47,143 bases of DNA from a virus. Below, one piece after another: positions 8,656-41,967 of the stretch. The first letter of the stretch is position 1; the number at the start of each line of letters is the position of its first letter. The notes below the pieces were generated by a model. It did not search any database. It saw only the letters and a program-made list of their open reading frames with translations, and had not been told where the DNA came from. The translations under genes and the position numbers were made by a program. The DNA lies in the IMG/VR virus record IMGVR_UViG_3300030389_002283, positions 1 through 47,143 of that record; one strand, given 5' to 3'.

Positions 8656-9068
8656 GAAAAAAAAAGAATTGGGAACAAAAAACTTTTGACCATATTGCAA
8701 AATACAAAGATAAAGGTTTTGCATGGGGAAAATGGGACTGTGTACGCTTCTCAAACGAATACATTCGCTCTGTAACAGGTAAATCTGCCATACCTAAGGG
8801 TATTGACTGGAAAAATGAAAAAACTGCTCTAAGTGCAATTGCAGAGCTTGGTGACAATTTCCCACATACTATAAACAATGTGCTAAATAATTTACCTTTG
8901 CAAAAAATTGAAAAACAATATGTCCAAGTTGGTGACATTGTGCTTTTCAAAGAAGAAGAACACCTTTTGGGGATTTATGATGGAAATTTTATACAAGCTG
9001 TAACAGAAACAGGCTTACAAGCTAAACCGATTGATTTGGCAATAAACATTTGGAGAATAAATGGCTAA
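8652..9068 (+). CDS. Tail-tip NlpC/P60-like peptidase (DUF6950 type)
   Basis: A 138-residue protein with WGKWDCVRFSNEYI, the catalytic-Cys motif of GTA ORF14-like and DUF6950 cell-wall peptidases, and downstream VQVGDIVLFK with HLLGIYDGNFIQAV, where the His region of the fold is expected. It sits between DUF2163 and the tail-tip protein, exactly where such peptidases occur. It may help the tail tip breach peptidoglycan. Assignment of the second catalytic residue is by eye. Confidence 0.8.
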   Translation: MRKKKNWEQKTFDHIAKYKDKGFAWGKWDCVRFSNEYIRSVTGKSAIPKGIDWKNEKTALSAIAELGDNFPHTINNVLNNLPLQKIEKQYVQVGDIVLFKEEEHLLGIYDGNFIQAVTETGLQAKPIDLAINIWRING

Positions 9069-12000
9069 AGCATTAGAAAACGCAGTCAGAGCAGCTGTAG
9101 TTGCATTTGTAGTAGTGGGTGCAACATTTTTAATTTTGTCAGGTGGTACATACGCTTTTGCGTTCAGCCGAGTCGTGCAAGGCGCATTGCTTGCAGGTGT
9201 GGGAGCATTGGTAAACACATTAATTACAAAACCACCAAAAGGAGTAACTAATGGAAACTATGGCGCAAAACTAACAACTACTAACCCTGTAGCGCCTAGA
9301 CAGATAGTTTATGGAGAGTGTCGTGTAGGTGGCACAGTAATCTATATGAAAACGAGAGGCACACAAAATAGCATATTAGATATGATTGTAGCTATTGCAG
9401 GACATGAGATTCAGAGTATTGAAAAAATATTTATTAATAAACAAGAAATTACATCAACAACACAAACAGTAAATTCAACAACAGTTAGTGAGGTCACTAC
9501 GTCAGATTTTGTGAATACCGAAAATGAAAACAGTTTTACCAATGGCAGATTAATAAGATTTGTAACTGGTTTAGGCGCTGACAACCAAGAAATGAACACA
9601 CACACTATAAATACAACAGATTTCACAGGTGACCATGACCTAAAAGGCATTGCATTTATACATTTTGAAATGGTTTATGACAGAGAAAAATTAAATGCTG
9701 TACCAGAGATTTCATACAGGATAAAAGGGAAAAAAGTGGTTGACCCAAGAGTACACGCAACAAATACTGCTTTCTCTAATAATCCTGCATTGATAGTGCG
9801 TGATATTCTTAAAGATACAAGATATGGGCTGAGGGCAACTGATGATGAAATAAATGATAACACCTCTGCAGGTGGTAATTTTATTAGTGCTGCGAATGCA
9901 TGTGATGTGCAGGTTGCAGACAAAGATGGTACTAATCACAATAAATTTACAGCAAATGGCTTTTTTGATGGCACGACAGGGATAGGCGAGGCCATAGAGG
10001 GCATACTTTCATCTTGTGCAGGTCAGCTAACTTACACGAATGGAAAATTTAATATATTTACTGGTGTTGCACAAACACCAAGCGCAACTATTACTGATGA
10101 TGATTTATTAGAAGAAATAAATCTGCAAAACTCCTCTGGACTTGGCAATATTTATAATCATGTCAAACCAATTTACATTGATGAAGCTAATAATTTCACT
10201 GCAACAGATTCTTTTTTGAGAAAATCAGGAAATGCTGAGTCAGGTAATAGCGCAGTTGATTTTCTAGCGATTGACACTCCAAGTGGAGAAACTCAAAGCA
10301 ATTATAAAAAGATTTTGGAAATGCGATTACCTTTTACTACAAATGACTCACAAGCACAAAGATTGGGTAAATTAGCACTAAATTATCAAAGAAGAACACA
10401 GACTTTCAATGCCAAAGTAAATTTAGGTTTTCTTGAAGTTCAAGTTGGTGATTGGGTATATGTGACAAATGAAAGGTTAGGATTTACTAACAAAACTTTT
10501 CAAGTAATAAGCTCAGTTTTTTCAGATGTAGGCTCGGCAGAACAACCAGTTTTAGGACTTTCTTTAGGCTTAAAAGAGATAGACACTAATGTTTTTGCCT
10601 TTGACACTTCTGCTGATTATGGCGCAAATACCACAGGAACAGTAGGTGATGATGGCACTATCGCACTTTCTGCACCGACAAGCCTTGCAGGAACAGCAAC
10701 GACTTCCTTAAATGATGATGGCTCATCAAACTCAAAAATTGATGTTAGTTTTACAAATGCCACAGGGATAACACCTTTAGGAACAGAGGTAGAGATAAGG
10801 CAGACAAATACTTTTGGCACACCAAACAATATGAATTTTGTTTCTTACCCTAATTCAACAACAACTTTTCAGGGTTTACAAAGTGGACAAAGTTTTTTCC
10901 TTAGAGCAAGACATACATACGACAACAATAGAAAAAGTGATTACACGAGTGTTATACAGGTAAATACAGCAGGTGATACCTCTGCGCCTAGTGCACCTTC
11001 AAATCTAAGCGCTACTGACAATGTGGAAGGTGGTATTTTGATTACTTGGACTAATCCCTCAGAAGCAGACTTTCAAGCTACAAAAGTTTACAGACAAAGT
11101 GGCACAAGCACACCCACTAATGATGACAACTTAGTGGCAACAGTTTCAGGACAAGCAGGCAAAACCTCACAGCTTTTTGAAAATAATACGCATGGTGTTA
11201 GCCCTTCAACCACAGTTCAATACTTTGTAAGAGCAGTTGATTCTTCTGGCAATCATTCTTCTTTTGTTGGACCAGAGGCAGGAAGCTATATTTCTTTTCA
11301 AGATGGTGGTGATTTGCTAGGTGGCACAGGTGGTGGCATATTTACCTTTTCTGCGAGTGGCAATCTAAATGCTCCAAACGATTCTACATTTAATTCAACT
11401 TTCGGCAGACAACCAAGAAATAAAGACTTAGTAATTGTTACAAATACCGCAGCTACTCCAAAAACACAAAAGATATATGAGTATGGCAGTCAAACTGCAA
11501 ATAGCACAGGTGGTGGTGGCTCATTTACAGAAAAAACAAATTCAGACTTTATAACAGGAGATTTGATTGTTCAAAACTCTATTACAGCTACAGAGATTGC
11601 TGCACAGACAATAACAGCTTCACAAATAGCTTCAGATACAATCACAGGTGGACAGATAACAGGCACAACACTTTCTGGAATATTTGCTGATTTAGGTACA
11701 ATTACTGCAGGAACAATAAACGCTGACAATATTACAGTGCAAAATCTGGAAGCTGATAATATCAAAGATGATGGAGTAAATGAAACAAGAATATTTCAAG
11801 CAAATATTTTGGGAGATTATGGGATATCAGCAGCTACTTCTGGAAACACATTTCTCACTACGTCTTTTCAGACCTTAGAAAGTTTTACTTTGGCAGCTTC
11901 TAAAGAAGCAGGAACTCACGCAATTATCGCAGTTGGAGATGTTGGTGGCACGATAACATCAGGCTCTCAAGTAAGATTTGATATTTTACATGGTGGTACT

Positions 12001-12195
12001 TCTGTAGCTAATTATACGTCCTCAGTCGGCGCAGGAGCATCACAAGCATTTGTTTTAGCAGCACAGGTATCAGCAAGTACTACACAATCAAAACTATTTC
12101 AATTACAAGGAAAGCGTTTATCATCTGATACAGATTTAGTTTCTTTTAACACTGCAATTTTTGCCATAAAATTAACAGCAAGTACCCAATCATAA
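9061..12195 (+). CDS. Large tail-tip / host-specificity protein (gpJ-like)
   Basis: A 1044-residue protein. Residues ~1-60 are a hydrophobic Ala/Gly/Val stretch followed by PPKGVTNGNYG and NPVAPRQIVYGECRVGG, a typical beginning for GTA ORF15/lambda J-like tips. Residues ~330-500 form the hub-like part (LEINLQNSSGLGNIYNHVKP-like segment, QVGDWVYVTNERL). Fibronectin-III-like repeats follow (APSAPSNLSATDNVEGGILI, then TWTNPSEADF). The C-terminal ~300 residues are Thr/Ala/Ile-rich with pentapeptide-like I-T-A-x-x-I-A repeats. It probably contacts the receptor and channels DNA through the outer membrane. Confidence 0.88.
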   Translation: MAKALENAVRAAVVAFVVVGATFLILSGGTYAFAFSRVVQGALLAGVGALVNTLITKPPKGVTNGNYGAKLTTTNPVAPRQIVYGECRVGGTVIYMKTRGTQNSILDMIVAIAGHEIQSIEKIFINKQEITSTTQTVNSTTVSEVTTSDFVNTENENSFTNGRLIRFVTGLGADNQEMNTHTINTTDFTGDHDLKGIAFIHFEMVYDREKLNAVPEISYRIKGKKVVDPRVHATNTAFSNNPALIVRDILKDTRYGLRATDDEINDNTSAGGNFISAANACDVQVADKDGTNHNKFTANGFFDGTTGIGEAIEGILSSCAGQLTYTNGKFNIFTGVAQTPSATITDDDLLEEINLQNSSGLGNIYNHVKPIYIDEANNFTATDSFLRKSGNAESGNSAVDFLAIDTPSGETQSNYKKILEMRLPFTTNDSQAQRLGKLALNYQRRTQTFNAKVNLGFLEVQVGDWVYVTNERLGFTNKTFQVISSVFSDVGSAEQPVLGLSLGLKEIDTNVFAFDTSADYGANTTGTVGDDGTIALSAPTSLAGTATTSLNDDGSSNSKIDVSFTNATGITPLGTEVEIRQTNTFGTPNNMNFVSYPNSTTTFQGLQSGQSFFLRARHTYDNNRKSDYTSVIQVNTAGDTSAPSAPSNLSATDNVEGGILITWTNPSEADFQATKVYRQSGTSTPTNDDNLVATVSGQAGKTSQLFENNTHGVSPSTTVQYFVRAVDSSGNHSSFVGPEAGSYISFQDGGDLLGGTGGGIFTFSASGNLNAPNDSTFNSTFGRQPRNKDLVIVTNTAATPKTQKIYEYGSQTANSTGGGGSFTEKTNSDFITGDLIVQNSITATEIAAQTITASQIASDTITGGQITGTTLSGIFADLGTITAGTINADNITVQNLEADNIKDDGVNETRIFQANILGDYGISAATSGNTFLTTSFQTLESFTLAASKEAGTHAIIAVGDVGGTITSGSQVRFDILHGGTSVANYTSSVGAGASQAFVLAAQVSASTTQSKLFQLQGKRLSSDTDLVSFNTAIFAIKLTASTQS

Positions 12196-12428
12196 TGTTA
12201 TTTAAAAAAGCAACACTCGGAAATCCACTTAGCACACTAGACCATCTTCGCTTAATAAGAAAAACTTTATTGCAAGAAAGTGATTGGACACAGGCTAGTG
12301 ATTCACCATTAACAAATGCCAAGAAAACTGAGTGGGCTACTTATAGACAACAATTGAGAGATTTGCCTGCATCATACTCTAATGAGGACAGTATAAACGA
12401 TGTGGTATTTCCAAGTGAGCCAAGCTGA
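12195..12428 (+). CDS. Tail fibre assembly chaperone-like protein
   Basis: A 77-residue protein with SDWTQASDSPLTNAKKTEW and ATYRQQLRDLP, the signature of the phage tail assembly chaperone family found next to fibre genes (S-D-W-T-Q-x-x-D-S-P-L then W-x-x-Y-R-Q-x-L-R-D-L-P). Start and stop overlap both neighbours. It may assist folding of the 9061 tip protein or the S74 fibre. Confidence 0.85.
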   Translation: MLFKKATLGNPLSTLDHLRLIRKTLLQESDWTQASDSPLTNAKKTEWATYRQQLRDLPASYSNEDSINDVVFPSEPS

Positions 12429-12778
12429 TGAATGAAATAGTTACAGTAATACAACAAGTTGGTTTTCCTATAGCTGCTGCTCTGGGTTTAGGGTGGTTTA
12501 TTTACAAACTAATAATGAGGATTGTAGATGGCATGGAAACAAAGATAGATACTGTTGATGATAAAGTTCAGCAACAAATTGAGGCTATGGAAGAAAGGTT
12601 AGGCACTAAACTTGATTCACAACATGGTATTTTGGTAGCATTAATTGATAGGGTCAGAAGCCTTGATAATGAGATTATAAGACAAGATACATTAATCAAA
12701 ACTATATTAGGTGTGCCACAATTAATAGACAGCAATAAAATTGCAAAAGCAGATAGAGATGACCAAAGAAAAGATTAA
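12428..12778 (+). CDS. Membrane-anchored coiled-coil protein
   Basis: A 116-residue protein with one N-terminal transmembrane helix (VGFPIAAALGLGWFIYKLIM) and a long charged coiled coil (DTVDDKVQQQIEAMEERLG). A C-terminal I-L-G-V-P segment follows. Small TM plus coiled-coil proteins of this type are common near lysis or tail genes in marine phages. A holin-like or scaffold role is conceivable but not shown. It overlaps the next small ORF by 20 bases. Confidence 0.7.
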   Translation: MNEIVTVIQQVGFPIAAALGLGWFIYKLIMRIVDGMETKIDTVDDKVQQQIEAMEERLGTKLDSQHGILVALIDRVRSLDNEIIRQDTLIKTILGVPQLIDSNKIAKADRDDQRKD

Positions 12779-12863
12779 ATATAAAATTGACTGGTATAAG
12801 CTAACAGTTTGGATTTTGATACTGTCATTTTGTTTGATTTTTTGGTATAACATATTGATATGA
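12759..12863 (+). CDS. Tiny membrane protein upstream of csgF
   Basis: A 34-residue ORF not obvious in standard calls: a basic N-terminus (MTKEKIKYKIDWYK) then one hydrophobic helix (LTVWILILSFCLIFWYNILI). It begins inside the preceding gene and its TGA overlaps the csgF ATG (ATGA), which suggests translational coupling into the curli-like cassette. Function unknown; it could be a membrane peptide of the cassette or of lysis. Confidence 0.5.
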   Translation: MTKEKIKYKIDWYKLTVWILILSFCLIFWYNILI

Positions 12864-13345
12864 ACAACACAGAAAAAGATTATTACAAATCAAAAAAAGG
12901 ATGTAGTGTCTTGCTTTTATTATTGCCATTTTTAGCTTTACCAATTTTTGCTGATGAAATGGTACACACTTTCAAAAATCCAAGTTTCAGTGGAATAGGA
13001 ACGTCTGCTCATTACATGACCATTGAAAATCAAGAATTCAATAGAAAGAAAGCAATCAAAGAAGAAATGAAAGCATATCAAGAAGAACTCAAAAGAGAAG
13101 CCGAAAATACAACATTGGCGAGATTCATACGTAATCTTGAAAGCCGAATATATGCACAACTCTCTAGACAATTAGTTGATGCTTTGTTCGGAGAAAATCC
13201 AAGTACAAGTGGTATCTTGGAATTAATGGGAAATACTATTGAATACTATGTTGATGAAGCTCTGGGACTTATTACCCTCAAAATTACTGATAGTGAAGGC
13301 AATGTTACTGAAATTACGCTTCCTATCGGTGATTTCTCTTTCTAG
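12860..13345 (+). CDS. csgF: CsgF-like curli secretion accessory protein
   Basis: A 161-residue secreted protein. A basic start (YYKSKKG) and hydrophobic core (CSVLLLLLPFLALPIFA) form a signal peptide with cleavage near A-D-E. The mature start VHTFKNPSFSGIG parallels the F-R-N-P-N-F-G-G pore-binding N-terminus of bacterial CsgF. The C-terminal part (TIEYYVDEALGLITLKITDS then ITLPIGDF) matches the CsgF pattern Y-x-V-D ... G-x-L-x-L-x-V-T-D ... T-x-I-x-V. In bacteria CsgF plugs into CsgG from outside and couples secretion to fibre nucleation. Immediately followed by csgG, overlapping by 44 bases. No CsgE is seen. Confidence 0.88.
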   Translation: MNNTEKDYYKSKKGCSVLLLLLPFLALPIFADEMVHTFKNPSFSGIGTSAHYMTIENQEFNRKKAIKEEMKAYQEELKREAENTTLARFIRNLESRIYAQLSRQLVDALFGENPSTSGILELMGNTIEYYVDEALGLITLKITDSEGNVTEITLPIGDFSF

Positions 13346-14108
13346 TTGTGCTGCCTTTTTATTTGACCCACTAGAGAATAATATTGTTCCTTTTGCTAAT
13401 CCTGAGGGCGCAGAGATTTTACAAGATGTTTTGCCTGAACTTACTGAGGTAGAAACACCTGCAATAAAACCAACAGTCGCAATATATCCAACAAGTTTTA
13501 CTGACCAAACTGGACAGAGGCTATCAAATAGTCTGTATGCAAGTTTTTCAACAGCAATAACACAAGCGCCACACACATATTTAATCAGCGCTTTACACAA
13601 AGCAGGAAAGGACAACGATGGTTTTTTTACAGTTGTAGAGCGTGTCGGCCTTGATAACTTAACCAAAGAGCGACAGCTTATTAGAACAACAAGAACACAG
13701 TTTGAGGAAGATGATAGCCTTAGGCCTCTTTTATTTGCAGGTTTACTACTTGAAGGTGGTGTGGTAGGGTATGAAAGTAACACCAAATCTGGTGGACAGG
13801 GTGTGAGGTATCTTGGCATAGGATTCTCTAAGCAATACCGAATGGACACTGTGACAGTTTCCTTGCGTCTTGTATCAGTATCTACTGGACAAGTTTTGTT
13901 AGACATTTTGAGCGAGAAAACTCTTTATAGTGCTTCAATATCTCAAGATGTTTTTAGATTTAGAGCTAAAGGAACGAAACTCGTTGAAATTGAAAGTGGC
14001 AATGTTAGGAATGAACAAAAGCGTTTGGCCTTACAGTTGGCAATAGAAACAGCAGTTTTGGAACTTATCTCTAAGGGAAAAGAAAATGGATTTTGGAAAT
14101 ATGATTAA
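13302..14108 (+). CDS. csgG: CsgG-like outer-membrane curli secretion lipoprotein
   Basis: From ATG 13302 the protein is 268 residues (E. coli CsgG is 277). It begins with a short lipoprotein signal peptide and lipobox L-S-S-C (Cys16); the longer upstream frame lies inside csgF and would bury this. The core is unmistakable: KPTVAIYPTSFTDQTGQ, FSTAITQAPHTYLISAL, FTVVERVGLDNLTKERQLIR, GGVVGYESNTKSGGQGVRY then LGIG, and VSLRLVSVSTGQVLL. CsgG forms a nonameric outer-membrane channel for curli subunits. In the pore-constriction stretch aligned by eye with E. coli Y51/N55/F56, only the Phe (F82, S-F-S-T-A) is kept. A signal peptide plus CsgF suggests a working pore. Confidence 0.93.
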   Translation: MLLKLRFLSVISLSSCAAFLFDPLENNIVPFANPEGAEILQDVLPELTEVETPAIKPTVAIYPTSFTDQTGQRLSNSLYASFSTAITQAPHTYLISALHKAGKDNDGFFTVVERVGLDNLTKERQLIRTTRTQFEEDDSLRPLLFAGLLLEGGVVGYESNTKSGGQGVRYLGIGFSKQYRMDTVTVSLRLVSVSTGQVLLDILSEKTLYSASISQDVFRFRAKGTKLVEIESGNVRNEQKRLALQLAIETAVLELISKGKENGFWKYD

Positions 14109-14817
14109 AAAATATTTTATTTTATTCTCTCTACTTGCTTATTGTGGTAATTACCTACTAAGTGATAACGAGGTGTATATCAATCAAGTTGGCGCTACAT
14201 TGAATTTAGATGTAGAACAGCTAGGAAGCTCCAACATTATTGGTGGATTAGATGCTGTTTCTGGTACTATGACAGCATTTGATTTAAATGGCTCTACAAT
14301 GACTGTGGACATAAATCAAATCGGCTCTAGCAACCAGTTTCTAGGTGACATTTTTAGTGATGACTTCACAGGCTTTTTTGAGTTTACTGGTGATTCAAAT
14401 ATATTCAACATAGAGGTTGACCCAACTAACACTTATGGTGCAGACGATGGCAACTTCAATATACAAGTAACTGGTTCAAGCAATGAGTTTGATTTAGATG
14501 TCGCAAAAAATGATTTAGCATCTGGTCTTGACCTAGACTGGATTATTCAAGGAAGCAACAATGAATTTGATTTTGAGATTGATTACGACTTAGGCACAAA
14601 CTACGTTGATGTGGATGGAAGTGATAACACAGTAAACTTCAATGCTGATGGATATGCCGAAGGGTTTTTCTATTTAGACCATACAGGCAGTAGTAGAACA
14701 TTCAATATTACACAATCATCAACTTTAGCTAGTGATTGGCTCAAGATTTTATCTAGTGGCAATAGTGGTACTGTTTGCGTCATTCAAAATGATGGCGGAA
14801 CAAGTACAAGCTGTTGA
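14086..14817 (+). CDS. Secreted curlin-like repeat protein (candidate CsgG/F substrate)
   Basis: A 243-residue protein from ATG 14086 (AAGGGA upstream; ATG 14101 is an alternative). A signal peptide is evident (MIKKYFILFSLLAYCGNYLL). The mature part is acidic and holds seven or eight short repeats around G-S-S-N: NQVGATLN, EQLGSSNII, NQIGSSNQF, FTGDSNIF, VTGSSNEF, IQGSNNEF, VDGSDNTV, HTGSSRTF. These recall the Q-x-G-x-x-N turns of curlin (CsgA/CsgB) but with many Asp residues and fewer Gln ladders. It overlaps csgG by 23 bases. Likely the exported fibre or adhesin subunit; amyloid formation is inferred, not shown. Confidence 0.75.
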   Translation: MDFGNMIKKYFILFSLLAYCGNYLLSDNEVYINQVGATLNLDVEQLGSSNIIGGLDAVSGTMTAFDLNGSTMTVDINQIGSSNQFLGDIFSDDFTGFFEFTGDSNIFNIEVDPTNTYGADDGNFNIQVTGSSNEFDLDVAKNDLASGLDLDWIIQGSNNEFDFEIDYDLGTNYVDVDGSDNTVNFNADGYAEGFFYLDHTGSSRTFNITQSSTLASDWLKILSSGNSGTVCVIQNDGGTSTSC

Positions 14818-15850
14818 TATTGGAAAAGTATTTGAATTAAAAGGTTACGCAAAAGTAATCAGAGAAAAGGATTACAATGCCGAACTAGATTTCGGCATTC
14901 AGTCCTATGACGATGTTAGAACTAGCAATGGCAGGATTGCAATATCTTTTGAAGACCAAAGCACTGTAAAACTAACTGAACATTCAAAATTGGTTATAGA
15001 CGAGTATATCTATGACCCTAACCCATCTAAAAGTAAATTAGCATTAAATTTTGCAAGTGGAACAGTAAGGTTTATTACTGGTAATTTAACTAAAATTGAT
15101 AAAAAAAACATATTTATCAAAACACCTACTGCTGATATTTCTATACGAGGAACAGATTTCACGACGACAGTAAATGAAATAGGTGAGTCTTTAATCATAT
15201 TACTGCCTAATCCAGATGGCTCAGCTAGTGGGGAAATTGAAGTTTCTACAGCTGTTGGCTCAGTAATATTAAATAGACCTTTTGAAGCCACCACAGTTTC
15301 AGTCTATGAAACAATGCCATCTAAACCAGTTATTTTGGATTTAACTTTAGATATTATTGACAATATGCTCATTGTAAGTCCACCTGAGGAGAAAACAGAT
15401 GATGATTTGCAAGGAACACGTCAAGTCAATGGTAACAATCTTTTAGCTTTTGATGATTTAGATATTGACTATCTCGCAGAGGATTTTTTTGAAGATGCTG
15501 ATTTTGAGTTCACAGAGCTAGATATTGATTATTTAAACGTCAATTTTTTTGAAGATTTATTAGATATATTAGAAGAGATTGATGAGTTAGAGGATGAACA
15601 ATTAGACCAACAGGCAACAACGACTGCAATAAAAGGCACTAATGTCGGACAAGACACAACAACGCAAATTACAACAATAATTACTGGCAATCTTATTTCA
15701 TTAAGAAGAAATGTAAATCAATCTGTGCAGTTAGACCTTGATTCAGGCTCTGCTTATACAGTAATCTTTATACAAGATGGAGTATCAAATCAAATAATTA
15801 TTAATGGTGGTGGCTCATCAAAAATAAGAATTTTACAATCATCAGGCTGA
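14732..15850 (+). CDS. FecR-domain periplasmic protein with curlin-like C-terminus
   Basis: A 372-residue protein from GTG 14732, overlapping the curlin-like gene by 86 bases. This start gives a good signal peptide (YLVAIVVLFASFKMMAEQVQA); later starts are possible. Residues ~28-150 are a FecR domain (VFELKGYAKVIREKDYN, DVRTSNGRIAISFEDQSTVK, then IKTPTADISIRGTDFTTTV). Residues ~240-275 contain a near-duplicate acidic repeat (LDIDYLAEDFFED and LDIDYLNVNFFED). The last ~45 residues end in QDGVSNQIIINGGGSSKIRI, resembling the curlin-like repeats next door. It probably works with the cyclase encoded four bases downstream, perhaps as periplasmic sensor or surface protein. Confidence 0.85.
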   Translation: MIGSRFYLVAIVVLFASFKMMAEQVQAVDIGKVFELKGYAKVIREKDYNAELDFGIQSYDDVRTSNGRIAISFEDQSTVKLTEHSKLVIDEYIYDPNPSKSKLALNFASGTVRFITGNLTKIDKKNIFIKTPTADISIRGTDFTTTVNEIGESLIILLPNPDGSASGEIEVSTAVGSVILNRPFEATTVSVYETMPSKPVILDLTLDIIDNMLIVSPPEEKTDDDLQGTRQVNGNNLLAFDDLDIDYLAEDFFEDADFEFTELDIDYLNVNFFEDLLDILEEIDELEDEQLDQQATTTAIKGTNVGQDTTTQITTIITGNLISLRRNVNQSVQLDLDSGSAYTVIFIQDGVSNQIIINGGGSSKIRILQSSG

Positions 15851-15854
15851 GCAA

Positions 15855-17642
15855 ATGAAATTAAGAAAAGTTTTTTATGGCTTTTTGTTGGCTTTATTTT
15901 TTTGTGTGCCTCTTGCATATAACCTTAAACCATTAACAATCTTAAAACTAAAAACCTTTGACACTTTTGTTAAAGAGCAACAACCCTCTGGATATTTTAC
16001 AGTTATTGATATAACAGAGGAAGATGTGCAGAGTTTTGGTGGATATCCTTTTCCTAGAAAAATATTAGGAGAAAAAGCAGCTTTGATAATGGAGCGAGGC
16101 GCACTTGGAGTTGGTTTTGTAATTTCATTTGTGGACGCTGATGTTTTTGGTGGTGATGAACTGTTTAGGGAACAAATGAAAGCGATTCCCTCTGCGGTCA
16201 TTGCCACCTTTGAATATGATAATAAAATCTACCCAGAGCCGACAGGAGTTGTGGTGTTTGGCCAAGAGGCAGAAGGCATAAAACTTAAAGGACACATACC
16301 GACGATTGATGAGCTTTCAGGTCTGAGTCAGGGAATGGTTTCTGCACCTTTATCAGATGATGGATTAGTGCGTACGCTTCCACTCCTCTTTCAAACGCCA
16401 GATGGTTGGATTCCCACATTTGGCACACAAGTTCTAAAAACTTTGGCAGGTAGTGACACGTTTATAATTAAAACAAACGAAAGTGGTATAGAAGAAATTA
16501 CTGTCAAAGGCATACCACCAAGCAAAGTTGATAGATATGGAAGAAAGTGGATTAGTTGGGTGGAAACTCCTAAAACTACGTTACAAGAATTGGATGTTGC
16601 AGGGAAATTTGTTTTTGTTGGTATAACAGCTAAAGGTGTAATGCCACAACTTGCTACAGCGAAAGGTGAGCTTCTTTATCCTCATTACATACAAACTGCT
16701 TTAGCTGAGTCAATTTTGATTACTGATAGTCCAAATATTCCATATTGGCATTTATCATTAGAATTAGCTGTAGTTTTTTTGTCAGTGCTTTTTATTTGGC
16801 TTCTAACACAATTTTTAGGCATCACATGGGGTTTAGTATCAAGTAGTGCAATATTTTTAGGCACAGGCTATTTTGGATGGTCAATGATACAAAAAGGTCT
16901 GTTAATTGATGTAACATGGGCGCTTATAAGTAGTTTTGTGACTGGTAGTATTAGTTTTTACTTAAATTTCAGAACGCAGTATAAATTAAGACAACAAATC
17001 AAAAAACAATTTGAGCATTACTTAGACCCAAGACAAGTCAAAAGACTGCAACAAAATCCAGAGTCATTAAAACTCGGTGGAGAGAAGAAATACTGCACAT
17101 ATTTATTTACTGATGTAAGAGGTTTTACACCTTTGACAGAAAAACTTACTCCTGAGGATGTCACACTAATTATGAATAGAGTTTTAACTGTCCAAGCAAA
17201 TGCAGTTAAGAAAAATGGTGGCATGGTTGATAAATACATTGGAGATGCGATGATGGCAGTTTTCGGCGCTCCACTAAGTATTACAGAGCCAGAGGATAAA
17301 GCCATAGACACAATGATTGATATTCTTGATGGCGTAAATCTTTTGAATTATGAGTTGGAAAATGAAGGTCTGCCTACAATAAAAATTGGTGTTGGTATCA
17401 ATTCTGGAGAGTCTATTGTAGGAAATATGGGCTCAGATACTAGATTTGATTACACTTGTATTGGTGATGCTGTAAATGTTGCTGCACGTTTAGAGTCAAA
17501 TACAAAAGAGTTAGGCGTATCAAATCTTATTGGCGAAGCAACAGCAAAAAACACTACATACAAATTAGAAGAATTAGATGGTATTATGGTTAAAGGCAAA
17601 AGCCAAAAGCTGAATGTCTTTACATGGAGATTTAATTTATGA
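15855..17642 (+). CDS. CHASE2-domain class III adenylate cyclase
   Basis: A 595-residue membrane signalling enzyme, very unusual for a phage. Residues 1-22 are an N-terminal anchor, ~25-290 a periplasmic CHASE2 sensor (FTVIDITEEDVQSFGGYPFPR is typical; ends G-E-L-L-Y-P-H-Y-I-Q-T-A), ~300-375 three transmembrane helices, then a linker and the cyclase domain (~405-560). All catalytic positions are visible: metal-binding D420 (FTDVRGF) and D464 (KYIGDAMMAVFG), adenine-selecting K460 and D532 (FDYTCIGDAVN), and N541/R545 (NVAARLES). It should make cAMP from ATP. FecR genes often neighbour such cyclases in bacteria. The TGA overlaps the holin ATG, so lysis and signalling genes are coupled. Confidence 0.95.
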   Translation: MKLRKVFYGFLLALFFCVPLAYNLKPLTILKLKTFDTFVKEQQPSGYFTVIDITEEDVQSFGGYPFPRKILGEKAALIMERGALGVGFVISFVDADVFGGDELFREQMKAIPSAVIATFEYDNKIYPEPTGVVVFGQEAEGIKLKGHIPTIDELSGLSQGMVSAPLSDDGLVRTLPLLFQTPDGWIPTFGTQVLKTLAGSDTFIIKTNESGIEEITVKGIPPSKVDRYGRKWISWVETPKTTLQELDVAGKFVFVGITAKGVMPQLATAKGELLYPHYIQTALAESILITDSPNIPYWHLSLELAVVFLSVLFIWLLTQFLGITWGLVSSSAIFLGTGYFGWSMIQKGLLIDVTWALISSFVTGSISFYLNFRTQYKLRQQIKKQFEHYLDPRQVKRLQQNPESLKLGGEKKYCTYLFTDVRGFTPLTEKLTPEDVTLIMNRVLTVQANAVKKNGGMVDKYIGDAMMAVFGAPLSITEPEDKAIDTMIDILDGVNLLNYELENEGLPTIKIGVGINSGESIVGNMGSDTRFDYTCIGDAVNVAARLESNTKELGVSNLIGEATAKNTTYKLEELDGIMVKGKSQKLNVFTWRFNL

Positions 17643-18118
17643 AAAAATTATTACAAGGCGTATTAGGAGCAGTAGCGCCAACAATTGGGACTGCGCTTGG
17701 TGGTCCAATGGGTGGCATGGCTGCTAAAATGATTGCAGAGAAATTAGGCCTACCCAACTCAAATCCAAAAACTATTGAATCAGCAATGAGCAATATTTCA
17801 CGTGAGGATGCTATGAAGTTGAAAGAAGCTGAGTTGGAATTTGATGCACAAATGAAGCAAATGGACGTTGATATTTTTGCTTTAGAGGCACAAGAAAAAG
17901 AAAGTGCAAGAAAGTATTTTTCTAAGGATTGGACAGCGAGAGTAATTGGAGTTGCGACTATCGGTGGATTTTTGGGTTATATATTTTTGGTTACACTACA
18001 ACCACCAGAGCAAAACTCAGAAGCCTTAATCAATCTAGTTCTAGGTTATCTTGGTGGCTTAGCAAGTGCTATTATTTCTTTTTATTTTGGAGCATCACAA
18101 TCTAATAACAAAGATTGA
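17639..18118 (+). CDS. Holin, GTA three-TM type
   Basis: A 159-residue protein with a Gly/Ala-rich amphipathic or membrane N-terminus (GVLGAVAPTIGTALGGPMGG), a charged helix (KLKEAELEFDAQMKQMD) and two C-terminal transmembrane helices (ARVIGVATIGGFLGYIFLV and LINLVLGYLGGLASAIISFY). SARKYFSKDWTARVIG before the first helix is typical of the holin family found in gene transfer agents. It begins the lysis group: holin, small membrane protein, nuclease, endolysin. Confidence 0.85.
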   Translation: MKKLLQGVLGAVAPTIGTALGGPMGGMAAKMIAEKLGLPNSNPKTIESAMSNISREDAMKLKEAELEFDAQMKQMDVDIFALEAQEKESARKYFSKDWTARVIGVATIGGFLGYIFLVTLQPPEQNSEALINLVLGYLGGLASAIISFYFGASQSNNKD

Positions 18119-18167: not shown

Positions 18168-18314
18168 ATGGACTTTTTTATAGGATTTATTTTAATATCT
18201 ATTGCCATTGTTGCAATAATCTGGAAATACAAGCCTGAATGGTTAGATTTAGTGAAATCTTTTTTTATTGAAAAATTTAGTTTCTTGAAAAAAGAAAAGA
18301 AAAGTAAAAAATAA
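18168..18314 (+). CDS. Small single-TM protein in lysis module
   Basis: A 48-residue protein with an N-terminal membrane helix (FFIGFILISIAIVAIIW) and a very basic end rich in Lys (KKEKKSKK). A strong AAGGAG site precedes ATG 18168. Its TAA overlaps the nuclease start (TAATG). The N-in-membrane, C-basic plan and its place between holin and endolysin suggest a lysis accessory such as a pinholin-like or spanin-like peptide; no motif proves this. Confidence 0.65.
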   Translation: MDFFIGFILISIAIVAIIWKYKPEWLDLVKSFFIEKFSFLKKEKKSKK

Positions 18315-18679
18315 TGTCTAAGCCATTTTTTTATAACTGCAATTTAGTCAAAGTTGTAGATGGAGATACCATAGACGTTGATGTTGATTTAGGCTTTGAT
18401 TGTTGGCTTCGCAATAAAAGAGTACGTCTGATGGGTATAGATACACCTGAGTCAAGAACAAGAAATCTCAAAGAGAAAGCATTAGGTCTAGCTGCAAAGG
18501 ATAGACTGATTGAGCTTTGTGGCAAAAAACTTAGGCTTCAATCACAAGGTACAGACAAATATGGCAGGATTTTAGGAGTGCCATATACAATTGATGGCCT
18601 TGATATTTGCAATATCTTAGTTGAAGAATCTCATGCAGTTCCATATTATGGTGGCAAAAAAACACATATCTGGGGATAG
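18314..18679 (+). CDS. Thermonuclease (staphylococcal nuclease fold)
   Basis: A 121-residue SNase-like nuclease. Signature segments are VVDGDTIDVDVDLGF (Ca-binding Asp), RVRLMGIDTPESR (catalytic Arg and Glu region), and GTDKYGRILG with a final Arg. No signal peptide, so it acts in the cytoplasm or after lysis. It probably degrades host DNA or scavenges nucleotides. It lies between two lysis genes. Confidence 0.9.
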   Translation: MSKPFFYNCNLVKVVDGDTIDVDVDLGFDCWLRNKRVRLMGIDTPESRTRNLKEKALGLAAKDRLIELCGKKLRLQSQGTDKYGRILGVPYTIDGLDICNILVEESHAVPYYGGKKTHIWG

Positions 18680-25008: not shown

Positions 25009-25635
25009 ATGTCATTTACAGTAAAACTTATATCTATTGATGATTTAATAGAATACGAAGATAACCCAAGAAATAATGATGAGGCTGTAGCAAAAGTAGC
25101 AGACAGTATCAAAGAGTTTGGTTTCAAAGTGCCAATTGTCGTTGATGAGGACATGATTATTTTGGCAGGTCATACAAGGTTAAAAGCAGCACGTTTATTA
25201 GGTTTAAAAAAAGTGCCTGTGCATCAAGCAAATGATTTAACAGAAGAACAGCGCAACGCATTCAGGATTATGGACAACAAATCTGGTGAAGCAGCTGATT
25301 GGGATAATGAATTGTTATCAAAAGAGTTTCAAAAATTAGCTGAAACTGATTTTGATATGCTTATGACAGGTTTTGATGATAAAGAAATTGCAAAGCTGAC
25401 GTCAGATATTTTAGAGTTTAAACCCTCAGATGATGTGAAATTTGAAGAAGGTTTTGCTAAACTTGATGATATACAGCCAAGTAATGTAAAAATGGTCAAT
25501 TTGTTTTTGAATCAAGACAATGAGCCGATTTTTCAAGAGATGATAGGAGTGCTTAAAGAAACTTGGGGACTTGAAAATTTGACTGATGCTGTTTATGAGG
25601 CTGTAAAAAAATGTTATGAAAACCCTGAAACTTAA
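25009..25635 (+). CDS. ParB N-terminal-domain protein
   Basis: A 208-residue protein. Residues ~1-110 are a ParB/Sulfiredoxin-fold domain: LISIDDLIEYEDNPRNNDE, VAKVADSIKEFGFKVPIVVD, and the P-loop-like motif ILAGHTRLKAARLLGLKKVP. The C-terminal half is helical and lacks a ParB DNA-binding domain. Phage proteins of this type often travel with DNA modification genes and could choose the target or work as a nucleotide-driven switch. Immediately follows the Cro-like gene and overlaps the TET/JBP gene by 20 bases. Confidence 0.9.
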   Translation: MSFTVKLISIDDLIEYEDNPRNNDEAVAKVADSIKEFGFKVPIVVDEDMIILAGHTRLKAARLLGLKKVPVHQANDLTEEQRNAFRIMDNKSGEAADWDNELLSKEFQKLAETDFDMLMTGFDDKEIAKLTSDILEFKPSDDVKFEEGFAKLDDIQPSNVKMVNLFLNQDNEPIFQEMIGVLKETWGLENLTDAVYEAVKKCYENPET

Positions 25636-26533
25636 ACCACATTACTCTTTAGAGGAAGCAAAAAAAAGAGCAGGTGAATTCGTCACCGAAGATGATTTTG
25701 ATTTACTGATTGAGGACGATTGTGATGCATACGATGAAAATGGTGAGCCACTATTTTTTTTCAGGAAAAATGCAATACCAACCAATTTATGTCGTGATGC
25801 GTATTACGTTCTAAGACACGCAGCAACACCAACAAATAATAGAGGCATGGCAGGTGGTATTATATCTGAGGAAACAAAGGCAGAGTGGGATATTGGTGAT
25901 GTGAGTAAAGTGCAAGTAAGACTAAGAAAGAAAGATGGTACGCTTTCAAACACAAGGAGAGCTAATACAGTAAACTCTGGTATTGTTGGATTTTTTGATA
26001 GAAATGCTAGATTTCCATATTGCAGACAGACAGCTTGGTATGAGAAAAACTTTATGCAGTTTAAAGACGCTTATCCATATATAAAATATATTGATAAACT
26101 TTTTGCAGAGGCCTGTCCTGAAAGATATAAGGCACAAAAAGATATGGCAAATAAAACCAATAAAGACTTTGTCATACAAGATACTGCCTTCACAACAGTG
26201 ACTGTAAACAAAAATTTCAGAACTGCTTTGCATACAGATGCAGGTGATTATGAAAAAGGTTTAGGAAATTTAGCAGTTTTAGAGGCAGGGCAATACAAAG
26301 GTGGTTATACTGTTATACCTAGATACAGAGTCGGCTTCAATGTCAGGTCAGGTGATGTGTGTTTCTTCAATGTGCATGAGTATCATGGCAATACTGAGCT
26401 AAAGAGCAAATTGGCATATGAAAGAATAAGTATTGTGTGTTATTACAGAGAAAATATGTTTCAATGCTTAAATGCTGAAAAAGAATTACAAAGAGCTAAA
26501 GCAAGACAAAGAGGCGATAGTCTTAGTGCCTAA
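25616..26533 (+). CDS. TET/JBP-family 2-oxoglutarate/Fe(II) DNA oxygenase
   Basis: A 305-residue protein. The catalytic jelly-roll is at ~190-280: NKNFRTALHTDAGDYEKGLG gives H206-x-D208, then LAVLEAGQYKGGYTVIPRYR and VGFNVRSGDVCFFNVHEYHG with the second His (H254 or H257), and ERISIVCYYREN with the 2-oxoglutarate Arg (R270 or R278). This is the pattern of phage TET/JBP enzymes, which hydroxylate the methyl of 5-methylcytosine or thymine. The N-terminal ~180 residues are less conserved. It lies in a ParB-TET-amidotransferase-GNAT-transferase-kinase operon. Whether the substrate is T or 5mC is unknown; no methyltransferase gene is seen. Confidence 0.85.
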   Translation: MKTLKLKPHYSLEEAKKRAGEFVTEDDFDLLIEDDCDAYDENGEPLFFFRKNAIPTNLCRDAYYVLRHAATPTNNRGMAGGIISEETKAEWDIGDVSKVQVRLRKKDGTLSNTRRANTVNSGIVGFFDRNARFPYCRQTAWYEKNFMQFKDAYPYIKYIDKLFAEACPERYKAQKDMANKTNKDFVIQDTAFTTVTVNKNFRTALHTDAGDYEKGLGNLAVLEAGQYKGGYTVIPRYRVGFNVRSGDVCFFNVHEYHGNTELKSKLAYERISIVCYYRENMFQCLNAEKELQRAKARQRGDSLSA

Positions 26534-27180
26534 TGTGTGCGGTTTTGGGATTACATAGCCAAGATTACATAGACCTTAATCTATTAAAAAAAATATTGGT
26601 GCAGTCAATGATTAGAGGCAAACACGCTACTGGTATTGCATATTTAGAAAATGATGAAATTAAATACAAAATTATTCCTAGCCATGCAGAGAGTTTTGAT
26701 ATACCTGATATTGCAACAAAATATCTTATTGCACATTGTCGTTATAGCACAAGCGATTTGGAGTATAATCAACCAATAGTAAGTGATAAATGGGCTGTTG
26801 TTCATAATGGCGTTATCACACAGGCACACCCAAGCACATGGCCTGATTTATATGGTTATGAGTTCCAAACAAAATGCGATAGCGAAATAGTCCTTCGTTC
26901 TTTGGAAGATGATAAACACCCACTTAATCTTAATGGCTCTATGGCTTGTGCAGTTTTAGAAAATTCTGACTCAGGCGCTTTACATTTTTTTAGAAACGAA
27001 CAAAGACCTTTATATTTTACTGAGCTAGGCACAACAACGATTGTAGCTTCAACTCGTGATATTTTGGCTCGTTCTGGCATAAATCAAGCTACGAAAACAC
27101 AAGCATGTTACACTTATAAAACTCAAAACAATCAGACGATGAAACACAAGGTACGTGATGTTATTGAAGATTTACAATGA
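26533..27180 (+). CDS. Class II glutamine amidotransferase (Ntn hydrolase)
   Basis: A 215-residue stand-alone glutaminase domain. MCAVLGLHS places the catalytic Cys at position 2, RGKHATGIAYL is the R-G-x-x-x-x-G motif, HCRYSTSDLEYNQPIV and WAVVHNGVI (H-N-G) and KCDSEIVL (D-S-E) are the other family motifs. It would release ammonia from glutamine or act as an amide-bond enzyme. In this operon it might transfer nitrogen onto a modified base. TAATG junction with the oxygenase gene, and it overlaps the GNAT gene by 23 bases. Confidence 0.9.
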   Translation: MCAVLGLHSQDYIDLNLLKKILVQSMIRGKHATGIAYLENDEIKYKIIPSHAESFDIPDIATKYLIAHCRYSTSDLEYNQPIVSDKWAVVHNGVITQAHPSTWPDLYGYEFQTKCDSEIVLRSLEDDKHPLNLNGSMACAVLENSDSGALHFFRNEQRPLYFTELGTTTIVASTRDILARSGINQATKTQACYTYKTQNNQTMKHKVRDVIEDLQ

Positions 27181-27775
27181 AGCTGAAACAGTAAAAGTAT
27201 TAGCACAACAAAGCGAAGGCAGATACACTAAATTTTTCAGAGCTGCTCATAGCCTCTGGAAAAGATTCAAAAACTATGAAAGACACCCACCTTATGTTTT
27301 GCTAAATGAAGAAAATGTAGAAGTTGCGATGATTTACTCTACTTTTAGTGATAAAACCAAATATACCAATCTTTATGAAATCTTTGCATTTGAGGGTCAT
27401 TCAGGAAAAGGTTATGGAAAAAAGGCTTGGGAGTTATGGCTTCAAGCTATGTATGTACGTGGCGCACACCGATTAAAACTATCATGCACACCTGACTCAA
27501 TAGGCTTTCACATGAAAAATGGTCTTGTGTTTTGGTCAGTAGATAGGTCAGGCTCATTGAGGTCAGACCAACCAATTATGCCTTCCATACAAGAACAAAA
27601 AGAGCTAAGAGAACGTGCAATTATTACACCTGATTTAGTTTTGCCTAATCAACAGGTCAGAAAAAGGCTCAAAGGTGAGGAACTAGAAAACTTAGATTTA
27701 TCACAAAACAAATTATTGCAAACTTACGAGGCCATACAAAAAGTAGGAGATTTTTGGCTGCGCAAACATTTATAA
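27158..27775 (+). CDS. GNAT-family N-acyltransferase
   Basis: About 205 residues from ATG 27158; GTG 27155 is also possible. The core motif A EGHSGKGYGKKAWELWL and the following HRLKLSCTPDSIGFHMKNGL are typical of GNAT acetyl-CoA-binding folds. N-terminal ~70 residues include RFKNYERHPPYVLLNEENVE; the C-terminal ~60 residues are helical. It may acylate an amine introduced on a hypermodified base, or modify protein. Sits between amidotransferase and transferase-like genes. Confidence 0.85.
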   Translation: MLLKIYNEAETVKVLAQQSEGRYTKFFRAAHSLWKRFKNYERHPPYVLLNEENVEVAMIYSTFSDKTKYTNLYEIFAFEGHSGKGYGKKAWELWLQAMYVRGAHRLKLSCTPDSIGFHMKNGLVFWSVDRSGSLRSDQPIMPSIQEQKELRERAIITPDLVLPNQQVRKRLKGEELENLDLSQNKLLQTYEAIQKVGDFWLRKHL

Positions 27776-28729
27776 ATGGATTTGAGGTTAGAACAAAATA
27801 GACAAAAGGCTTTTATAGACTGGTCTGTTTGGTCTTTAAATTACAAAGATTGTGACCCTGCATTGTGGATGCTTAATTATTTATTTGACAGATATGAGCA
27901 TAATATAGAGCAAAAATACTGGATTGCTTGGATATATGGCACTACTTATCATCTACCGACTGCTTGGATTATTTGGAATGAGTTTCCAGATTTTGAGTTA
28001 GTTGATTATGACAGATTGAAAGACTGGAATGACAAAAACTATAAAAGATTGCGCTATCAAACAGACACAAAATGGAATAAAGGACACCTACCAGAGCAAT
28101 TTGCCTCTTATCAAAAGTGGGTAGCACATTCAAACGCTTTAGGCACACAAAGGTCTAAGTTTAAAAATCTTGGACATAATTTTTCTATGTTATGGAACAG
28201 TATTAACCAATTACATAAGTTTGGACGTTACAGCACATGGTTTTATATGCAAACATTAAATGATTGTGTCGGTCATCGTGTTGTGCCTACTAATTTGAAA
28301 TTAGATGATTACTCAGGCTCTAGGAGTCATAGGAATGGTCTTTGCTATGCGTTAGCACGTGATGATTTGATAGATAAAAAACTAACAAATACACAGTTGC
28401 ATGAGTTACAACAAGGCGCACAGTTTTTGCAAGACCAAATAAACGCTAAAGGTTTTGATATGGATTTCTACGAGATGGAAACGCTTTTATGTAGTTTCAA
28501 AAAAATATTCAGAACTTCAAGAGGTAGATACTTAGGCTATTACTTAGATAGACAAGCAGAGGAAATAAAAAAAGTAGAGGCTGATGGTTGGCATGGTATT
28601 GATTGGCAAGTTTTCTGGGATGGTAGGAAAGAGTGTTTGCATAAAAAATTGTCAGCATCAAGGAGCATTAGAGAAGATTTATACAAAGTTTTTCTCAATA
28701 CAGGGACTTTGGAATATGGCACAGTTTAA
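27776..28729 (+). CDS. Candidate DNA-base transferase (alpha-GPT pyrophosphorylase/HMUDK-helical-like)
   Basis: A 317-residue, mostly helical protein rich in Trp and Tyr (FIDWSVWSLNYKDCDPALWM; YWIAWIYGTTYHLPTAWIIW; FGRYSTWFYMQTLNDCVG; GSRSHRNGLCYALARDD). The G-R-Y/F-x-x-x-x-Y-x-x-Q-x-L and R-N-G-L-x-x-A-L-x-R-D patterns resemble, by eye, the glycosylase-like helical domain of thymine-hypermodification enzymes (alpha-glutamyl/putrescinyl thymine pyrophosphorylases, also the helical part of 5-hmdU DNA kinases). It would replace a pyrophosphate on 5-hydroxymethyl-U with an amine. It is followed by a kinase gene, overlapping by 14 bases. Family call is moderate. Confidence 0.55.
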   Translation: MDLRLEQNRQKAFIDWSVWSLNYKDCDPALWMLNYLFDRYEHNIEQKYWIAWIYGTTYHLPTAWIIWNEFPDFELVDYDRLKDWNDKNYKRLRYQTDTKWNKGHLPEQFASYQKWVAHSNALGTQRSKFKNLGHNFSMLWNSINQLHKFGRYSTWFYMQTLNDCVGHRVVPTNLKLDDYSGSRSHRNGLCYALARDDLIDKKLTNTQLHELQQGAQFLQDQINAKGFDMDFYEMETLLCSFKKIFRTSRGRYLGYYLDRQAEEIKKVEADGWHGIDWQVFWDGRKECLHKKLSASRSIREDLYKVFLNTGTLEYGTV

Positions 28730-29264
28730 AGCAGTAGCAATTGGTGGTGTTCCTGCAACTGGGAAATCAACACTAATGAAAGCCATAATTGAGAAACTTA
28801 AAAAAACTTCATCTCCTACCACTTGGAAATTTGGTCTTTTGAATGGCCTTATGTTTGACAATATCTGTATAATCGGTACGTATCCTGCTGAACAGACTTT
28901 TGGTGGCACAGATAGACTATCTATGGCTGCGCCTAAAGATATGCAAAAATTTATTGATTGGGGTGAAAGAAGTATTTTATTTGAAGGTGATAGATTGTTT
29001 ACCAAAAATATTCTAGAAAATTTAATACAGAAATATGATACGAAAATAATTGTGTTGGATTGCGATGAGCAGACTTTAGACGAAAGACACAAAGCAAGAG
29101 GTGATAGTCAAACAGAAAAATTTCTTAAAGGGAGAGCTACTAAAATACAAAACATATTAAAGAGCGAGGCCATCAAGATAAGAACAGAGATATATACACT
29201 GTCAAGACTGAAATTGACCGACGACCTCGCAGACCAAGTTATTTCATTTTTTCGCCAAAGTTAA
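28716..29264 (+). CDS. P-loop kinase, candidate 5-hydroxymethyl base DNA kinase
   Basis: A 182-residue kinase from ATG 28716. The Walker A motif GGVPATGKSTLMKAI is at the start, D-R-L-S near the middle, SILFEGDRLFTK as a Walker-B-like strand, KIIVLDCDEQTLDERHKARGD, and KGRATKIQNIL as a lid-like helix. Nucleoside/DNA kinase fold. Next to the transferase-like gene and TET/JBP oxygenase it fits a 5-hmU (or 5-hmC) DNA kinase that activates the hydroxymethyl group. Its last 26 bases overlap the end of the convergent primase-helicase gene. Substrate not shown. Confidence 0.7.
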   Translation: MAQFKAVAIGGVPATGKSTLMKAIIEKLKKTSSPTTWKFGLLNGLMFDNICIIGTYPAEQTFGGTDRLSMAAPKDMQKFIDWGERSILFEGDRLFTKNILENLIQKYDTKIIVLDCDEQTLDERHKARGDSQTEKFLKGRATKIQNILKSEAIKIRTEIYTLSRLKLTDDLADQVISFFRQS

Positions 29265-41616: not shown

Positions 41617-41967
41617 AGTGCAGGTTTTCATCATTTCACAATAGAACAAGGTGCTACCTTTAGCAAAGTTTTAACGCTTAAAGATAGTTCCAACACAGTA
41701 ATAAATCTTACAGGCTACGCTAGTGCAGAGATGGACTTACGTGCCGAACAAGACTCATCATCAGAAATATTAACACTAACAACAGCTAATGGCAGGATAG
41801 CATTAGGTGGCTCTGCAGGAACTGTTACTTTAACTATATCGGCTTCTGACACTGCAAACCTGAGTGTGCAAGATGGCGTATATGATTTAGAGATTGTTGA
41901 TGGCTCTAGCAATATTTTTAGGATTTTAGAAGGAACTTTTAGCGTAAGAGGTAATGTAAGCAGATAA
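41614..41967 (+). CDS. Small beta-rich structural protein
   Basis: A 117-residue protein with FHHFTIEQGATFSKVLTLKD, DLRAEQDSSSEILTLTTANG, and GVYDLEIVDGSSNIFRILEG. The pattern F-x-x-x-x-G-A-T-F plus a late G-x-Y-D-L-E resembles small baseplate or fibre-anchor proteins (BppU N-terminal-like) in marine phages. Its TAA overlaps the fibre ATG, so it may attach the fibre to the virion. Confidence 0.65.
   Translation: MSAGFHHFTIEQGATFSKVLTLKDSSNTVINLTGYASAEMDLRAEQDSSSEILTLTTANGRIALGGSAGTVTLTISASDTANLSVQDGVYDLEIVDGSSNIFRILEGTFSVRGNVSR

Follow-up and report, generated by a model that had tools for sequence, protein, structure and literature searches.

A curli-type cassette in a siphovirus genome

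The marine virus record IMGVR_UViG_3300030389_002283 (47,143 bases, analysed over its whole length and called the window below) carries on its + strand, at 12860-17642, a cassette of five genes coding for CsgF, CsgG, a curlin-repeat protein, a FecR-domain protein and a CHASE2 cyclase. The genes are tightly packed and some of them overlap, CsgF and CsgG by 44 nucleotides (nt; CsgG ATG at 13302), CsgG and the curlin gene by 8 nt (curlin ATG at 14101), and the curlin and FecR genes by 86 nt; a gap of 4 nt separates FecR from the cyclase gene, which overlaps the gene at 17639, again by 4 nt. The five assignments and their strand, proposed in a preliminary description of this DNA, are borne out by Pfam matches (CsgF, CsgG, FecR, CHASE2, Guanylate_cyc) and by the relatives of the curlin-repeat protein (Table 1).

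The phage CsgG matches the solved E. coli CsgG in the PDB at 1.5e-37. Its frame is open from TTG 13239; the start at ATG 13302 yields a lipobox signal peptide, the Cys of which is invariant among 14 aligned sequences. In E. coli the N-terminal region of CsgF lines the CsgG pore, as seen in CsgG:CsgF structures, and the corresponding F-K-s-P-S-F-s-G motif is kept across 36 sequences. A single-sequence search of CsgF against the PDB gave no genuine match. Pfam scans of the cassette proteins and their neighbours, with some small frames of the window outside the scan, recovered no CsgE, CsgC or CsgD, which are likewise absent from published phage modules (PMC9599517). A related CsgG, 39% identical to that of the window, is encoded by an unannotated 1.5-kb 'Salmonella phage' record (OR851715.1) that is probably host DNA.

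The curlin-repeat protein has a signal peptide, and its frame is open from ATG 14086. By itself it stays under the Pfam cut-off (PF07012, E 0.23-0.28); 13 of its 18 aligned relatives match this family (Curlin_rpt), the best at 5e-17. The h-x-Q-x-G-x-x-N motif occurs in all 50 curlin homologues, about twice per protein as against 0.05 times in shuffled sequences. The AlphaFold model is an all-beta repeat with a predicted local distance difference test score (pLDDT) of 79 and matches viral models carrying the name 'Curlin associated' (E 7e-6), with no Foldseek match in the PDB at E 0.001. A structural alignment of the model was set aside as too unspecific: it returned generic beta-helix matches (Z 17.7, SufB-like chains) and the E. 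coli CsgA fibril at Z 8.2 with a root-mean-square deviation of 9.1.

In the model of the FecR-domain protein the FecR domain is confidently predicted at residues 30-200 and matches the PupR signalling domain (6ovk, Z 15.4) and a Parabacteroides anti-sigma protein (4m0n, Z 13.6). Residues 1-25 form a membrane segment or signal anchor, and the cytoplasmic anti-sigma domain is missing; therefore the protein is no iron sigma regulator. The C-terminal part is weakly modelled (pLDDT about 55 over 300-360). The h-x-Q-x-G-x-x-N motif is found in 60% of the FecR C-termini compared with 4% in shuffles, the sequences being mutually related. A curlin-type tail on FecR was nevertheless rejected as anything more than a lead, as a curlin-repeat profile could not separate FecR from shuffled FecR.

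The cyclase consists of a membrane segment, a periplasmic CHASE2 domain, C-terminal membrane segments and a cytoplasmic cyclase domain. Both metal-binding Asp residues, the adenine-binding Lys and the catalytic Arg are present in 83/83 homologues, and activity is predicted. The cyclase Asn is kept in 82 of the 83. The Thr/Ser/Asp position is occupied 76, 6 and 1 times, respectively; Thr at this position marks class IIIb.

Table 1. Genes of the cassette and of its flanks in the window
Feature	Position	Strand	Matches and characteristics
Tail J-type central fibre protein, siphovirus tail tip, upstream flank	9061..12195	+	phrog_5616 5e-62; phrog_31 'central tail fiber J' 1e-52; PF13550
Tail-fibre-assembly-like gene, flank	12195..12428	+	phrog_4912 3e-17
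Short membrane coiled-coil protein, weakly holin-like	12428..12778	+	phrog_18771 6e-17; phrog_4898 'holin' 1e-3
CsgF, curli assembly protein, pore partner	12860..13345	+	PF10614 5e-16; signal peptide, then FKNPSFSG N-terminal motif
CsgG, outer-membrane pore lipoprotein	13302..14108	+	PF03783 1.7e-43
Secreted curlin-repeat protein, candidate fibre subunit	14101..14817	+	I-x-Q-x-G-x-x-N repeats; predicted beta-solenoid
FecR-domain protein	14732..15850	+	PF04773 1.6e-11; signal anchor followed by the FecR domain, a disordered acidic linker and, at the C-terminus, a small beta segment with a curlin-like motif at its end
CHASE2-class III adenylate cyclase	15855..17642	+	PF05226 1.5e-21; PF00211 1e-17
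Membrane protein, two C-terminal transmembrane segments	17639..18118	+	phrog_1544 3e-17; occupies the slot of the spanin pair in relatives
48-residue single-transmembrane peptide	18168..18314	+	
SNase-like nuclease, recurrent flank	18314..18679	+	PF00565 3e-11
Endolysin (phage lysozyme)	18681..19139	+	PF00959 6e-45; phrog_7 4e-51

Conservation, spread and counterparts

The proteins of the record form an HK97-fold siphovirus set. Head genes (TerL, portal, MuF, S78 protease, HK97 capsid) were recognised as well as connector and tail genes (head-tail adaptor, head closure, tail completion, tail terminator, major tail protein, tape measure, distal tail protein, tail J), and no sheath or baseplate protein surfaced among the annotated proteins of the record. 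With this full head and tail set on a 47-kb virus record, a prophage or bacterial contig is ruled out. The closest relatives of its TerL share less than 50% identity, the record contains no tRNA genes, and a search with the podovirus portal family PF12236 found no match anywhere, controls included, and is hence uninformative.

The concern that the gene order might be confined to this contig and coincide with an assembly join to bacterial DNA is not confirmed. An independent contig, L204, is 99.88% identical to the record over 20 kb spanning the cassette, and the same gene order was found in dozens of contigs. An assembly chimera is ruled out by L204, by contig L206 (80.8% identical) and by the relatives counted below. 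L204 also links the last 1.2 kb of the record to its first bases; because the two ends are joined, the record is near a whole genome of about 47 kb. A long repetitive fibre gene is broken across the record ends (41967-47143 and 1-1328), and the first bases recur as partial repeats at the L204 join.

A scan of viral contigs for the cyclase identified at least 599 contigs with relatives, of which the best 80 were used. Among these, FecR precedes the cyclase in 39/39 loci with room for it, and CsgG does so in 26/26. A scan for tail J yielded 64 contigs, 32 of which have at least 2.0 kb downstream of J. The cassette follows J in 30 of these 32; L212 ends too early, and L236 is without it. The cassette is nearly fixed at one place in this siphophage group. 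The ratio of non-synonymous to synonymous substitution rates (dN/dS) is 0.04-0.22 for all five genes across eight contig pairs, one pair having saturated synonymous sites in the curlin gene and another having no CsgF; all five are under purifying selection. Purifying selection on the curlin gene is as strong as on the pore, which argues for a secreted substrate rather than a bare pore. Since the GC content at third codon positions (GC3) equals that of the phage head and tail genes, the cassette is no recent arrival.

A CsgG scan of genome contigs revealed the same cassette with cellular flanks in three chromosome contigs, one from Hyphomonas sp. TMED17 (L086, a 705-kb contig) and two from metagenome-assembled genomes (MAGs) of Caulobacteraceae (L087 and L089). 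They comprise CsgF, CsgG, one or two curlins, FecR and the CHASE2 cyclase in identical order. Apart from their flanks, they differ from the phage cassettes by the absence of the holin-like gene before CsgF and by a longer cyclase C-terminus. In a tree of 62 CsgGs, the three sequences group with all phage CsgGs in a single clade (support 100/98) that excludes the 19 other bacterial CsgGs. The siphovirus CsgGs themselves do not form one clade (at least five changes; many tree contigs are of unknown type, and the window is located on a long branch). Therefore, either the module moved between phage backbones or the tail genes did. An alphaproteobacterial origin and transfer between phage families have already been proposed (PMC9599517), and the bacterial gene order with FecR and cyclase may already be contained in figure 4 of that paper.

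The preliminary description had regarded the five-gene set with cyclase as the notable part, a view that is superseded, as CsgF-CsgG-CsgA/B-FecR-cyclase was described in SAR11 podo- and myophages in 2022; such modules are widespread in the sea and expressed in metatranscriptomes (PMC9599517). The type VIII secretion system (T8SS) module of HTVC023P-type podophages and of myophages (PMC9599517, PMC7029224; HTVC008M gp014-gp019) shares the order CsgF, CsgG, curlin, FecR, (second curlin), cyclase, and the HTVC008M CsgG is 42% identical to that of the window. Here, however, the carrier is a siphovirus, the module is located among the lysis genes, CsgF is preceded by a gene for a membrane coiled-coil protein rather than by one read as a histidine kinase, and the second curlin is absent from the window, though present in L255, L257 and L266. 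The Methylophilales phage Melnitz (PMC9004378) has CsgF, CsgG (43% identical), a curlin repeat, FecR, a second curlin repeat and the cyclase in order, but it is a T4-like myophage whose module adjoins replication genes and a transfer-messenger RNA. The Melnitz paper (PMC9004378) calls csgA/csgB absent; its GenBank record (L002, MZ577097) lists within the module two proteins with curlin repeats, along with a FecR protein and a cyclase. With E. coli curli (CsgBAC/DEFG) the phage module has in common the CsgG pore, its partner CsgF and the I-x-Q-x-G-x-x-N curlin repeats, whereas it lacks recognised CsgD, CsgE and CsgC and adds FecR and the CHASE2 cyclase. As far as the literature available to us shows, the siphovirus carriers, the near-fixation, the lysis-block seat with spanins, the cellular cassettes, the doubt about the kinase and the missing cyclic AMP (cAMP) receptor in SAR11-family genomes are new.

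Surroundings of the cassette

The preliminary description had placed the cassette between tail and lysis genes, and this seat is confirmed by the tail J and tail-fibre-assembly genes upstream and by the membrane gene, SNase and endolysin downstream. The endolysin lies within 3 kb past the cyclase in 28/44 loci, and a short membrane gene is found upstream of CsgF in 28/28 loci with room. The product of this gene (12428 in the window) has an N-terminal transmembrane segment and a coiled coil; there is one copy in the window and two in many relatives. Its match to the holin family phrog_4898 is weak, with E values of about 1e-3 to 2e-4 in the window and relatives. Between it and CsgF, a 34-residue frame with a single membrane segment (12759-12863) overlaps the CsgF start codon with its end. 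On the other hand, the module lies away from lysis genes in the myophages HTVC008M and Melnitz, so the lysis-block seat is a trait of sipho- and other short-genome phages.

In the SAR11 phage modules, one or two histidine kinases are stated to be always located before CsgF (PMC9599517). From position and number, rather than from the authors' sequences, we infer that the pre-CsgF gene is the same gene that this paper calls a histidine kinase. Seven copies of the pre-CsgF gene gave no Pfam match to a kinase domain; their products, which combine one membrane segment with a coiled coil, have only 83-117 residues, too few for such a domain.

Several relatives have an Rz/Rz1-type spanin pair between cassette and endolysin (phrog_739 to 1e-14, phrog_812 to 7e-15). 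We compared this slot in 53 loci with an endolysin within 5 kb after the cassette, loci without an endolysin match being excluded. A two-membrane-segment protein of the 17639 type occurs in 14 of them, a spanin-type lipoprotein in 21 and both in none, an exclusion with a chance of 2e-4 assuming independent loci, which the loci are not. Because the two never co-occur in that slot, the data suggest that the 17639 membrane protein replaces the spanins.

Elsewhere in the record, 25009-29264 is probably a DNA base hypermodification cluster, with genes for a ParB-like nuclease, a TET/JBP dioxygenase (PF12851 6e-25), a glutamine-amidotransferase-like protein, an acetyltransferase-like protein, an amino acid:DNA transferase (PF18724 4e-21) and a P-loop protein.

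Possible roles of the module

This type of curli module has been known since 2020-2022, and its role is a proposal; clumping, superinfection exclusion, nutrient entry and lysis timing have all been put forward in earlier papers. The reading that we prefer, and to which we give slightly better than an even chance, is that the phage carries a curli-type (type VIII) secretion module by which a curlin fibre leaves the cell late in infection via a CsgG:CsgF pore, while FecR and the cyclase sense the envelope. The complete module would stem from an alphaproteobacterial lineage and now lies among the lysis genes. Upon late co-expression, CsgG would form a nonameric outer-membrane pore capped by CsgF, through which the curlin-repeat protein could be exported, so that a fibre or coat builds up on the infected cell and on its debris. 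The periplasmic FecR and the inner-membrane CHASE2 cyclase would act as an envelope-sensing pair and report the state of pore, curlin or envelope to the cytoplasm as cAMP. The phage might benefit by holding cells or virions together, or by keeping rivals out. Because curlin, CsgG and CsgF are conserved together, fibre export is the part of the preliminary description that fits best; cAMP control, its other part, is doubtful in light of the receptor searches below.

We propose the FecR-domain protein as a periplasmic link from the CsgG pore or its substrate to the CHASE2 sensor. FecR-domain proteins adjoin CHASE2 cyclases in Campylobacterota (PMC9239204), one is located near CyaD1 in Sinorhizobium (PMC5498481), and NsrA, an outer-membrane protein of Sinorhizobium, acts upstream of inner-membrane cyclases (PMC7529298). 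The S. meliloti NsrA-CyaK system (PMC7529298) and the Campylobacterota CHASE2-FecR clusters (PMC9239204) thus resemble the phage pair in having an inner-membrane cyclase with periplasmic CHASE2 beside a FecR-domain or outer-membrane protein. These systems, however, have CRP-type receptors or phosphodiesterases at hand, whereas no cyclic nucleotide monophosphate (cNMP)-binding domain was found in this phage.

Several observations speak against fibre export under envelope sensing. The CsgE gate is unrecognised in the window and in the cassettes, and no clumping was seen with Melnitz, a carrier of the same module (PMC9004378). The contact between FecR and CHASE2 is itself presumed, and FecR lies beside CHASE2 cyclases in only 4/30 alphaproteobacterial loci, where the flanks, at about 1.4 kb, do not reach far enough for a judgement. 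Contigs L084, L216, L217, L247 and L249 have the other four genes but no cyclase, so the cyclase is not obligatory. The cNMP-binding domain PF00027 is absent from the window and from three siphophage relatives with HK97-type capsid. Among 60 SAR11-family genomes drawn around the MAG G005, this domain occurs in only 2, and 58 are without a CRP-type receptor domain. This scarcity bears on the phage only on the condition of a SAR11 host, in which cAMP would be made without a standard receiver. In the same genomes, class III cyclases were found in 2 and CsgG in 2, namely G005 and G314, both copies residing on cassette-bearing contigs. The G314 contig, L272, also has an endolysin, plus terminase- and portal-like frames judged by eye. 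L272 and three further contigs (L084, L085, L091), binned as SAR11-family, Maricaulis, Pelagibacter and Planctomycetaceae genomes (L084, L085, L091 and L272 corresponding to Maricaulis, Pelagibacter, Planctomycetaceae and SAR11-family, respectively), look like cassette-bearing phage contigs; bins with such contigs would falsely suggest cellular curli.

The location of the cassette invites the alternative, proposed for Melnitz (PMC9004378), that the module is a lysis or release device in which the CsgG:CsgF pore, in a pinholin- or secretin-like manner, makes the envelope permeable or sets the time of lysis. The holin-like gene before the cassette, the endolysin after it and the spanins in between are in line with this idea. 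Yet CsgG is an outer-membrane lipoprotein pore, while a pinholin must act on the inner membrane; in relatives, holin-like, spanin and endolysin functions are already provided by the neighbours; it is left unexplained why there should be a curlin substrate under purifying selection; and the HTVC008M and Melnitz modules are not beside lysis genes. We therefore consider a lysis device unlikely. Much the same holds for superinfection exclusion, named as a possible role in PMC9599517, by which pore and fibre would alter the surface to exclude rival phages, the cAMP being incidental. The near-fixed presence fits a trait under constant contest, but a late operon seat, as the position implies, would shield only a cell about to lyse, which makes this role unlikely as well.

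It is distinctly improbable that an open CsgG pore serves to let in nutrients or cofactors for phage growth, as proposed in PMC7029224 and PMC9599517. The unrecognised CsgE gate would suit an open pore, and FecR hints at iron, but the protein begins at a membrane anchor and is without the cytoplasmic anti-sigma domain of true FecR regulators, and curlin and CsgF would be given no role. That the curlin protein belongs to the virion or tail, with the pore as a by-product, is highly improbable in spite of the tail genes upstream, since curlin and FecR have signal peptides and both accompany CsgG and CsgF in bacterial chromosomes.

A more far-reaching version of fibre export with envelope sensing, to which we give only a small chance, somewhat below that of a lysis device, is that the phage supplies an entire second-messenger circuit to hosts having none. 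FecR, CHASE2 and cyclase would sense curlin export or envelope stress, and the cyclic nucleotide, read by an as yet unrecognised receptor, would serve as a checkpoint that separates fibre export from lysis. If this were true, the seat of the cassette between holin-like and spanin genes would be functional and not accidental.

Because SAR11-family genomes apparently lack a standard cAMP receptor, the purpose of the cyclase becomes a sharp, testable puzzle, and the cellular cassettes of Caulobacteraceae and Hyphomonas kin provide a comparison for the phage module. In one siphophage group the curli module is not sporadic cargo but nearly fixed, at a single site, within the lysis genes. This narrows the question to why a phage about to lyse its host would export a fibre.

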